Assembly (NCBI GenBank): GCA_947567625.1
Contig: CANONN010000006.1
Location: 1-64,000 of the forward strand
Source: an uncultured Roseburia sp.
GTDB lineage: Bacteria; Bacillota; Clostridia; Lachnospirales; Lachnospiraceae
Direction: 5' to 3'
Length of the DNA: 64,000 nucleotides
The translations under genes and the position numbers were made by a program. The notes below the pieces were generated by a model that saw only the letters and a list, made by a program, of their open reading frames with translations, was not told where the DNA came from and did not search any database. The first letter of the stretch is position 1. Each line of letters begins with the position of its first letter. Positions 20,940 to 60,290 of this stretch are shown one piece after another.

Positions 20940-21025
20940 GGAACCGCCGTATACGGAACCGTACGTACGGTGGTGTGGGAGGTCGGTAGATAAAATAATT
21001 ATCTAACTCCTACCCGATCTTTTGT
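20940..21025 (+). mobile_element. 3' end of a group II intron (domains V-VI region)
   Basis: Directly after the maturase stop, GAACCGCCGTATACGGAACC and CGTACGTACGGTGGTGTGGG followed by a paired GAGGTCGG...CCCGAT segment resemble the catalytic 3' end of bacterial group II introns. The 5' part of the intron was lost, so this is a remnant. Confidence 0.65.
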
Positions 21026-44795: not shown

Positions 44796-44816
44796 GCAGC
44801 CATTTATTGACATTAA

Positions 44817-44896
44817 TAGGAAACTGCGTTGACAAACGCATGAATTCCCAAGTTGCGCAGCAATTTGCAAAGAATCAGGAAGGGATTCTTTTTTAT
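44817..44896 (+). repeat. Triple-hairpin terminator repeat, copy 1 (before ecfT)
   Basis: Three stems follow each other: GCGTT/AACGC, AAGTTGCGCAGCAATT and AGAATC...GATTCTTTTTT, the last with a T run. The same element occurs at 55832 and 60215. The rest of the 215-base gap before ecfT shows another hairpin (TAAAAACCCTCCGGGAGG). Confidence 0.7.
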
Positions 44897-55728: not shown

Positions 55729-55771
55729 AACAACAAGATACATCAATATAATTGATAAAATCACACCTTGC

Positions 55772-55824
55772 AAAGTGCTTTGCGTCTGTGCTATCATAGG
55801 CTACAGATTCAAAGCACTTTTTTT
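55772..55824 (+). terminator. Terminator after the GH28 gene
   Basis: AAAGTGCTTTG pairs with CAAAGCACTTT, with an inner CTGTGC...GGCTACAG stem, and seven T residues follow. Confidence 0.7.
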
Positions 55825-55831
55825 ACTTTAT

Positions 55832-55911
55832 AGGAAATCGCGTCGTCAGACGCGTCAATGCCTAAGTTGCGGAGCAACTTGCAAAGAATCACGAAGTGAT
55901 TCTTTTTTATT
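55832..55911 (+). repeat. Triple-hairpin terminator repeat, copy 2 (before leuA fusion)
   Basis: GCGTCGTCAGACGC, AAGTTGCGGAGCAACTT and AAGAATCACGAAGTGATTCTT stems are followed by TTTTT. Base changes against copy 1 (GCGTC/GACGC instead of GCGTT/AACGC) keep the first stem paired. Confidence 0.75.
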
Positions 55912-55950: not shown

Positions 55951-57945
55951 ATGGATATAGCAGCAAAATATGGAAAATCATACTTTATGCCGCCGGAGAC
56001 CACCTATGATTGGGTCAAAAAGGACAGTATCACAGAGCCGCCGATCTGGTGCAGCGTCGACTTAAGGGACGGAAATCAGGCGTTGATCGAGCCTATGAGT
56101 TTAGAGGAAAAGCTGGAGTTTTTCCAGATGCTGGTCGAGATTGGCTTTAAGGAGATTGAAGTCGGTTTTCCGGCGGCATCCGACACCGAATACCAATTTA
56201 TGCGGGCGTTAATCGAGCGGGATATGATACCGGACGATGTGACGGTGCAGGTGCTCACCCAGGCGCGTGAGCATATTATCCGCAAGACCTTTGAGGCGGT
56301 AAAGGGCGCACCGCACGCGGTGATACACCTCTACAATTCCACCTCTGTCGCGCAGCGGGAGCAGGTGTTTCAAAAGAGCAGGGAGGAAGTAAAAAAGCTG
56401 GCGGTGGACGGCGCCGTTTTACTGCGCGACCTCGCGGCGGAGACAGAGGGCAACTTTACGTTCGAGTACAGCCCGGAGAGTTTTCCGGGAACCGAGGTCG
56501 ATTATGCGGTTGAGGTGTGTAATGCCGTGCTCGATGTCTGGAAGCCGGATGAAGCGCACAAGGCGATCATCAATATCCCGACCACGGTTCAGATTGCCAT
56601 GCCGCATGTCTTTGCCTGTCAGATCGAGTATATTCACAAACACTTAAAATACAGGGACAATGTAATTATCAGTGTCCATCCGCACAACGACAGGGGCTGC
56701 GGCATCAGTGACGCGGAGTTTGGCGTTTTGGCGGGCGCCGACCGCATCGAGGGCACGCTGTTTGGCAACGGAGAGCGCACCGGAAATGTCGATATTGTGA
56801 CGCTCGCCATGAATATGGTCTGCCACGGTGTCGACCCGGGGCTTGATTTTCACAATATTGCCGCCATTCGGGAAAAATATGAGCGTTTTACCAGAATGAG
56901 AGTCTATGAGCGCACGCCGTACGCCGGAGACCTCGTGTTTACCGCGTTTTCCGGCTCCCATCAGGATGCGATCTCCAAGGGGATGGCATGGCGTGAGGCG
57001 GGCAAGAGCGGCGAGCGCTGGGATGTGCCGTATCTTCCGATCGACCCCAAGGATGTGGGGCGCGAATACGAGTCCGATGTGATTCGCATCAACAGCCAGT
57101 CCGGCAAGGGCGGCGTGGCTTATATCTTAAAACAGAATTTTGGCATGTCGCTCCCCAAAGCGATGCAGGAGGAGGTCGGCTATCTGGTGAAAGGCGTTTC
57201 CGACCGTATGCATCAGGAGCTTACGCCCAAAGAGATCTATCGGATTTTTGAGGAGAACTATATCGCTCATGAGGCGGTATTCCAGATTCCCGAATGTCAT
57301 TTCGAGCAGAGAGACGGTATCACTGCCAAAGTGACGATTGAGCAGGAGAATGAGAAGCGCCTGATCGAGACGGCGGGAAACGGACGGCTCGATGCGGTCA
57401 GCAATGCGGTGAAGATGTATTTTGGCATCAGCTATGAGCTGGCTGCTTACGAGGAGCACGCGATCTCGCAGGGTTCCTCCTCGAAAGCGGCCTCCTATGT
57501 CGAAGTGATCTGCGAGGGCAGGCATTTTTGGGGCGTGGGCATTGACGAGGACATCATAAAGAGCTCGATCGACGCGCTGGTTGCGGCGGTAAATAAGGTG
57601 GTCAAGAGTAAGAATATCAGGGAGGGAAGAGAAGAGCGCATCATGGATATTATGAATTATATCCAGAAGAATTATGCCGATGTCAGCCTCGACTCTCTCG
57701 CGCAGGAGTTTAACCTTTCCAAAACTTACCTCTCCAAATATATCAAAGAAAAGTCCGGCATAACTTTTCAGGACGCCGTGAAAAAGGCGCGCATGAAAAA
57801 AGCGCGCACGATGTTAAAAGAGACCAACCAGACCGTGGAGTCGATCGCGGCCTATGTGGGTTATGAGAATGTAGAGCACTTTAACCGCCTGTTCAAGTCT
57901 GCATATGATATGACGCCGGTACAGTTTCGCAGGAAATATCAGTGA
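55951..57945 (+). CDS. leuA: 2-isopropylmalate synthase fused to an AraC-type DNA-binding domain
   Basis: Residues 1-440 form the LeuA condensing enzyme (SVDLRDGNQALIEP near residue 37, metal-binding HPHNDRG near 237), which joins acetyl-CoA and 2-oxoisovalerate in leucine synthesis. Residues about 445-550 match the LeuA allosteric domain. From residue 563 a complete AraC-type double helix-turn-helix follows: IMDIMNYIQKNYADVS, LAQEFNLSKTYLSKYIKE and ESIAAYVGYENVEHFNRLFK. The frame is continuous with no stop or frameshift. Such a fusion would couple leucine binding to transcription; that role is inferred. ATG 55951 follows AAGGCAAGG. Confidence 0.95.
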   Translation: MDIAAKYGKSYFMPPETTYDWVKKDSITEPPIWCSVDLRDGNQALIEPMSLEEKLEFFQMLVEIGFKEIEVGFPAASDTEYQFMRALIERDMIPDDVTVQVLTQAREHIIRKTFEAVKGAPHAVIHLYNSTSVAQREQVFQKSREEVKKLAVDGAVLLRDLAAETEGNFTFEYSPESFPGTEVDYAVEVCNAVLDVWKPDEAHKAIINIPTTVQIAMPHVFACQIEYIHKHLKYRDNVIISVHPHNDRGCGISDAEFGVLAGADRIEGTLFGNGERTGNVDIVTLAMNMVCHGVDPGLDFHNIAAIREKYERFTRMRVYERTPYAGDLVFTAFSGSHQDAISKGMAWREAGKSGERWDVPYLPIDPKDVGREYESDVIRINSQSGKGGVAYILKQNFGMSLPKAMQEEVGYLVKGVSDRMHQELTPKEIYRIFEENYIAHEAVFQIPECHFEQRDGITAKVTIEQENEKRLIETAGNGRLDAVSNAVKMYFGISYELAAYEEHAISQGSSSKAASYVEVICEGRHFWGVGIDEDIIKSSIDALVAAVNKVVKSKNIREGREERIMDIMNYIQKNYADVSLDSLAQEFNLSKTYLSKYIKEKSGITFQDAVKKARMKKARTMLKETNQTVESIAAYVGYENVEHFNRLFKSAYDMTPVQFRRKYQ

Positions 57946-57988: not shown

Positions 57989-58030
57989 AAGCTGCCGTGG
58001 GAACCATCAACGTTCCCGCGGCAGCTTTTA
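57989..58030 (+). terminator. Intrinsic terminator after the leuA fusion
   Basis: AAGCTGCCGTGGGAAC and GTTCCCGCGGCAGCTTTT form a 15-bp stem with one G-T pair around a seven-base loop. Confidence 0.8.
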
Positions 58031-60125: not shown

Positions 60126-60214
60126 AGTGTGAGAAGAAAATCTAATCGCTTGCGGCAGAGGCCGCTTCGCGAAGATTTTCTACGGCGCCAAAAAACAGCG
60201 CCTGTCTAACTTTA

Positions 60215-60290
60215 TAGGAAACAGCGTCTTCAGACGCATCAATCTCAAGTTGCGGAGCAACTTAAAGAATCGCGAAGTGATTCTTTTTTA
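60215..60290 (+). repeat. Triple-hairpin terminator repeat, copy 3 (before tilS)
   Basis: GCGTCTTCAGACGC, AAGTTGCGGAGCAACTT and GAATCGCGAAGTGATTC with TTTTTT. It is closest to copy 2. The gap between spoIIE and tilS also contains a GAAGAAC-type hairpin (60294-60320) and leader copy C. Confidence 0.75.

Follow-up and report, generated by a model that had tools for sequence, protein, structure and literature searches.

A 2-isopropylmalate synthase joined to an AraC-type DNA-binding domain: a probable leucine-responsive regulator of its own gene in Lachnospiraceae

A leuA gene whose product ends in a DNA-binding domain raises the question whether an enzyme of leucine biosynthesis can also act as a transcription factor, and on which genes. 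All positions given here refer to the window, i.e. the whole 64-kb stretch of DNA that was analysed, and the features of the locus are collected in Table 1. The first-pass annotation had claimed that one frame joins LeuA to an AraC-type double helix-turn-helix (HTH). This claim holds, since the frame runs from an ATG at 55951 to a stop codon ending at 57945, encodes 664 amino acids without internal stop, and the Pfam domains are complete and in order. HMGL-like (E = 4.4e-70), IPMS_D2 (1.6e-34), LeuA_dimer (4e-27) and HTH_18 (residues 583-661, 2.8e-21, profile positions 1-79 of 80) all scored above the gathering score, and the NCBIfam model PRK03739 of a 2-isopropylmalate synthase subfamily matched residues 15-549 with 801.5 bits (cutoff 455). 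The catalytic and the LeuA_dimer domain that characterize a 2-isopropylmalate synthase are thus both present, and a single chain holds the intact enzyme together with a DNA-binding domain, as is typical for trigger enzymes.

Table 1 Features of the leuA-araC locus
Feature	Position	Strand	Basis or remark
Predicted operator, 31 bp, core ATCAATATAATTGAT at 55742-55756	55730..55760	+	PWM score 32.6; conserved in relatives
Predicted leuA promoter: TTGCAA, 18 bp, TATCAT, extended -10 TG	55768..55797	+	Columns conserved
Copy of a dispersed palindromic repeat (leuA leader)	55818..55910	+	Lies between the promoter and the start codon; its end is close to a terminator-like hairpin (55883-55905)
Fused gene leuA-araC, 664 aa	55951..57945	+	Single open frame with full-length relatives
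Catalytic HMGL-like domain with R39, D40, E176, H243, H245 (residues 32-308)	56044..56874	+	Pfam
IPMS_D2 post-catalytic domain with H337, Y361 (residues 327-394)	56929..57132	+	Pfam
LeuA_dimer allosteric (leucine) domain (residues 423-550)	57217..57600	+	Pfam
Variable linker (residues 551-561)	57601..57633	+	Low conservation
AraC-type double HTH, seven helices (residues 562-664)	57634..57942	+	Pfam, model, 6swi match
First recognition helix (residues 591-602)	57721..57756	+	Model; conserved, degenerate in L074, L079, L085
Second recognition helix (residues 641-652)	57871..57906	+	Model; conserved, degenerate in L074, L079, L085

The AlphaFold model of the full-length protein was of moderate quality (mean pLDDT 73), with a catalytic barrel that was poor in parts; pLDDT values of the DNA-binding domain were mostly 83-89 and fell to 76-77 at the domain ends. 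The last approximately 100 residues form seven helices including a long linking helix, and the domain could be superimposed on the AraC-type structure 6swi (TMt 0.77, rmsd 1.6 over 104 columns). Pfam and the AlphaFold model therefore both show the arrangement of AraC/XylS-type domains, in which a long helix connects two HTH motifs within about 100 residues. In 104 aligned sequences the mean frequency of the top residue was 0.77 in the DNA-binding domain, 0.76 in LeuA_dimer and 0.49 in residues 551-566, the least conserved stretch measured. Seven residues of the enzyme part (R39, D40, E176, H243, H245, H337, Y361), which we take from the alignment with the M. tuberculosis enzyme to have catalytic or metal-binding roles, were invariant in all 81 fused and all 37 unfused rows. 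The columns aligned to the presumed leucine pocket, also adopted from M. tuberculosis LeuA, were largely conserved. An internal start yielding a free DNA-binding domain was considered as well, because ATG codons at residues 565 and 568 are preceded by a purine-rich stretch. It was rejected, as Met is not conserved there: residue 568 is M in 72% of the rows, while residue 565 is most often V.

Within its own genome the fused gene was the sole match of 2-isopropylmalate synthase size among 25 matches; 23 others covered the AraC part only and one was a 28.6-bit stretch at residues 239-344. A search for homologues in Lachnospiraceae, as the first-pass annotation had proposed, revealed that the fusion is common. 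A match at E ≤ 1e-40 was present in 272 of 299 genomes of the family, and an uninterrupted match reaching at least residue 659 in at least 68 of them (own genome counted in both cases). Among the best 80 of 235 relatives from GTDB genomes, 79 carry the full-length fusion, L103 being the exception, and the carriers include the cultured isolates Eisenbergiella tayi, Dorea phocaeensis, Sporofaciens musculi and Faecalicatena contorta as well as Mordavella isolates. With these relatives, a sequencing or assembly artefact as the origin of the frame can be dismissed. Of 391 genomes sampled across the class, 134 had a match at E ≤ 1e-150, and three fusions were located outside the family, two in one other family (G509 and G373) and one in another (G511). 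A quick tree built from 122 enzymes requires seven changes for the fused rows, and in it the HTH-less L103, L126, L129, L130, L132 and L134 nest among fused rows, though many forks are weak. This suggests that the HTH was lost several times; since 47 of 119 inner branches of this tree are open, the number of losses is approximate.

Upstream of the fused genes we found a common site, TAAAATA(A/C)ATCAA-N6-TGATTAAAA with the short core ATCAA-N6-TGAT; downstream of it come TTGCnn, a 17-bp spacing and the extended -10 element TGnTAnnAT. The -35 and extended -10 columns are conserved across 57 aligned sites, and the exact core together with the needed flanks occurs at 62 of 80 loci (79 fused loci and the window). 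A matrix was built from 56 of the 57 sites, the window's included; the one left out was a wrong second core in L114. With this matrix the window operator (score 32.6) was the sole hit of at least 5 in the 64 kb, the site itself belonging to the training set. The predicted operator adjoins the leuA promoter on its upstream side, and from the predicted promoter transcription would start near 55804, which would place the operator centre near -55.

The locus shows some further elements. The dispersed palindromic repeat of about 90 bp has 23 matches in the genome, among them the copy in the leuA leader and those at 44803-44896 and 60209-60290. Together with the terminator-like hairpin, the leader copy may affect leuA expression in the window's strain. 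Directly 3′ of leuA a GC-rich inverted repeat with a short T run was seen by eye at 57990-58030, which suggests that leuA is a single-gene transcript. A group II intron match (RF00029, 48.5 bits) is located at 20942-21018 of the window.

How closely the site follows the domain was determined by scoring fused and unfused loci. An operator score of at least 20 within 1000 bp was obtained for 65 of the 74 fused loci with at least 300 bp of upstream DNA (79 fused loci in total), and these 74 loci supplied 55 of the 56 training sites. L117 has its site (30.9) at 1348 bp, beyond the 1000-bp limit; L078, L081, L082 and L083 have an intact HTH and kept the first half-site (scores 8.6-14.4); in L087, a close relative of L074, L079 and L085, an intact HTH stands beside a decayed site (2.2). 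Loci outside the training set behaved similarly: six of seven fused ones reached 20 (L249 scored 9.7), and three of these six, which come from two other families of the class, scored 20.2, 33.9 and 24.5. As controls 40 leuA loci were used, 37 of which had no HTH match in the DNA fetched after leuA (at least 327 bp). None of these 37 reached a score of 20, the best being at most 9.3. The remaining three (L127, L128, L140) did reach it. L127 is a fusion cut by the contig end, while L128 and L140 kept the operator upstream and carry an intact HTH directly after leuA in another frame; these two could be two-protein versions, cases of frameshifted expression or sequence errors. Unfused leuA copies in the fusion-carrying genomes G022, G108, G373 and G509 all scored between -14.2 and -3.8 (4/4), and the maximum in a background of 482 stretches of 700 bp was 6.7.

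For 118 scorable tree rows, HTH and site were both present in 72 and both absent in 41; five had the HTH only (L087, L078, L081, L082, L083) and none had the site only. This count treats the degenerate HTHs of L074, L079 and L085 as absent; if they are taken as present, the numbers for both, HTH only, site only and neither change to 72, 8, 0 and 38. When the tree is ignored the association is strong (Fisher p = 1e-26), but it is phylogenetically clustered. Well-supported branches provide only four independent pairs (3.8 concordant on average, none discordant, median sign-test p 0.125), and the tree-aware test alone is therefore not significant. L011, L012, L078, L081-L084, L086 and L091 form a clade whose second half-site is altered; no compensating change of the recognition helices was found there, and the columns that mark this clade fall outside both helices.

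Natural losses add to this picture. L074, L079 and L085 keep the open frame, have lost conserved residues of the recognition helices (in L074 LSKPYLSKYIKE instead of the conserved form LSKEELFRYIEE) and possess no operator. In the two pairs formed among them, the catalytic domain had dN values of 0.02 and 0.03, and the HTH values of 0.31 and 0.41. L103 is closely related to the window gene but has no HTH; one half of its first site is left, and a downstream site is still present as a fair copy. This is read as a recent loss of the HTH; another user of the site fits as well. Considered together, the intact, degenerate and lost cases tie the site to the AraC-type domain, which very probably binds DNA and whose target appears to be leuA itself.

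In many gut bacteria LeuA, the first enzyme of leucine synthesis, thus has a DNA-binding tail and a matching site before its gene, and it probably turns this gene on or off according to leucine supply. We consider it quite probable, judging from these comparisons of sequences, that the gene encodes a trigger enzyme that autoregulates leuA under the control of leucine, likely as an activator in its leucine-free form. In this mechanism the N-terminal part would make 2-isopropylmalate, and the C-terminal AraC-type domain would bind the 31-bp operator near -55 of its own promoter and thereby set leuA transcription. LeuA_dimer immediately precedes the DNA-binding domain; leucine bound to LeuA_dimer would inhibit the enzyme and also alter DNA binding or activation. 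Leucine gating is suggested by the presence of LeuA_dimer and its conserved residues. Activation by the leucine-free protein is the most likely mode, because the operator immediately precedes a -35 element that is poor and a -10 element of the extended type; it would then be lost when leucine is plentiful. This direction of control is less certain than the self-targeting.

It is conceivable, if less likely, that the fused domain is instead a leucine-dependent repressor. The LeuA dimer would then set its two DNA-binding domains on operators to both sides of the promoter, so that a small loop is closed or the start site is blocked. A second, downstream site scoring at least 14 was indeed found at 12 of 54 deduplicated loci, as compared to a mean of 0.8 and a maximum of 3 in 60 shuffled sets. 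It was located 73-76 bp from the first site in ten of the twelve cases, 63 bp in L248 and 59 bp in L241; with the exception of the 59 bp these spacings are near whole helical turns. Nevertheless, at 42 of the 54 loci, the window among them, no second site of at least 14 was present (12.3 in the window, a poor match by eye), and over all 54 loci the distances gave no strong peak (best z 2.5 at 36 bp). Furthermore, the usual position of AraC-type activators is upstream and next to the -35 element, as observed for the first site. In those lineages that possess it, among them ones of Dorea or Roseburia type, the second site would fit repression as well as activation. As a rather speculative extension, the two AraC-type domains of the enzyme homodimer might contact two operators at once, one on either side of the promoter and separated by about six to seven helical turns, and leucine might open or close the loop. 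End-product inhibition and DNA-loop control would then originate from one leucine pocket in one protein.

Whichever direction applies, self-regulation by the fused enzyme has to be viewed beside the T-box leaders, RNA switches that read uncharged tRNA. The T-box signature GGTACCGCG is present upstream of leuA in 30 of the 37 HTH-less controls, and those signature-bearing controls that were checked in Rfam were confirmed (4/4). In Rfam searches eight of nine signature-bearing loci reached the gathering score (L061 did not), as did none of six loci without the signature. T-box control of the window leuA was also considered and rejected, since no Rfam match at gathering score is located near the gene; the eight T-box matches of its own genome are all on contigs other than the window's. 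Many further fused genes are devoid of the signature, others carry signature and operator together, and the domain would therefore either replace the RNA switch or sit beside it. Where both are present the operator lies upstream of the T-box signature, and the site thus goes with the promoter and not with the start codon. Like a T-box leader, the fusion would confer supply-dependent control on leuA transcription, but the leader is an RNA and the fusion a protein. The best reading of these data is that the fusion replaces or supplements the T-box leader usual in unfused relatives.

The first-pass annotation had assigned the targets of the domain either to other genes or to leuA itself. The second part of this proposal is favoured by an operator that lies at the leuA promoter and tracks the domain, whereas no target elsewhere was found at leuC-like or ilvC loci. 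A scan of 13 stretches from seven fused genomes with the matrix, which covered leuC-like and ilvC loci only, detected no site of at least 8; the leuC-like hits were below the cutoff of the leuC family. In a pattern search the own genome yielded the leuA site (one mismatch) and two hits with two mismatches, and the control one hit. In a further pattern search, which included unfused genomes, four of the matches listed were without mismatch, all at leuA, and hits with one or two mismatches away from leuA occurred in unfused genomes, too. With no site at leuC-like and ilvC loci and the leuA site as the sole close match in the own genome, the protein has the appearance of a single-target self-regulator. 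A wider role in controlling branched-chain amino acid genes, which the enzyme's position at the branch to leucine and the suggestion of the first-pass annotation would favour, is improbable in the light of the same two results. On contig C15 of genome G000 (L223, 1689-11504), inspection by eye showed ilvN-ilvC, leuS, and leuC-leuD with a divergently oriented LysR-type gene; the remaining leucine pathway may be under other control.

Alternatively, the operator could serve another, trans-acting regulator, and the AraC domain could oligomerise or bind elsewhere. The 23 other AraC-part matches of the own genome and the intact HTH beside the decayed site in L087 would agree with this. We regard this alternative as still more improbable, because site and domain are missing together in several lineages, the unfused leuA copies of fusion-carrying genomes have no site, and recognition-helix residues are decayed in the three members without trace of a site. 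That the HTH is a passive, functionless remnant of a read-through fusion is hardly credible: it can be lost, as the HTH-less relatives nesting among fused rows of the quick tree illustrate, but dN values calculated for eleven pairs (the HTH being intact in nine of them and degenerate in two) point to strong purifying selection in all nine intact pairs (HTH dN 0.004-0.099, in 7/9 below that of LeuA_dimer), with the constraint relaxed only in the two pairs without operator.

If autoregulation by the fused LeuA is true, a metabolic enzyme spread through Lachnospiraceae is its own leucine-responsive transcription factor, with one predicted target, and one leucine pocket sets both flux and gene expression. 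The link between allostery and transcription could therefore be tested in one protein and at one promoter. Protein-based control would be added to, or take the place of, the T-box switch, and the genomes already hold natural loss experiments in which the domain is gone, the domain is degenerate or the operator is gone. For engineering, the pairing of an enzyme domain that senses its end product with a following AraC-type domain could also be of use as a leucine sensor.

Parts of this arrangement are known from other proteins. M. tuberculosis LeuA (1sr9, 3fig) shares the enzyme and the leucine domain (501 bits, residues 27-519), but it has no DNA-binding domain, because its chain ends at the leucine domain (query residue 550 corresponds to 642 of 644). 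Ada of E. coli, a DNA-repair methyltransferase with an AraC-type double HTH, controls the expression of its own gene. It resembles the LeuA fusion in joining an enzyme to this type of domain and in the autoregulation, which is predicted for the fusion, but belongs to an unrelated enzyme family and is switched by self-methylation and not by a metabolite. The DNA-binding fold of PutA is ribbon-helix-helix, and BirA and NadR have N-terminal DNA-binding domains of another fold. PMC8249747 describes PutA as a single-target trigger regulator of putA/putP and BirA and NadR as multi-target trigger enzymes of E. coli; PepA is also listed among enzymes with a DNA-binding function of their own. BirA and NadR are, like the LeuA fusion by prediction, metabolic enzymes that bind DNA; they represent other enzyme families and, according to that paper, have multiple targets, whereas one target was found for the fusion. 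No description of LeuA combined with an AraC domain and an operator was found in the titles and abstract openings of the open-licence papers that literature searches listed. Enzymes with a built-in DNA-binding domain are familiar, and the combination of LeuA and AraC looks new. PutA, a proline dehydrogenase, is comparable to the fusion in that the enzyme carries a DNA-binding domain and binds at the gene that encodes it, as predicted for LeuA. PutA, however, is catabolic and represses when its substrate is absent, while the LeuA fusion is a biosynthetic enzyme with the AraC domain placed behind the domain that senses the end product.
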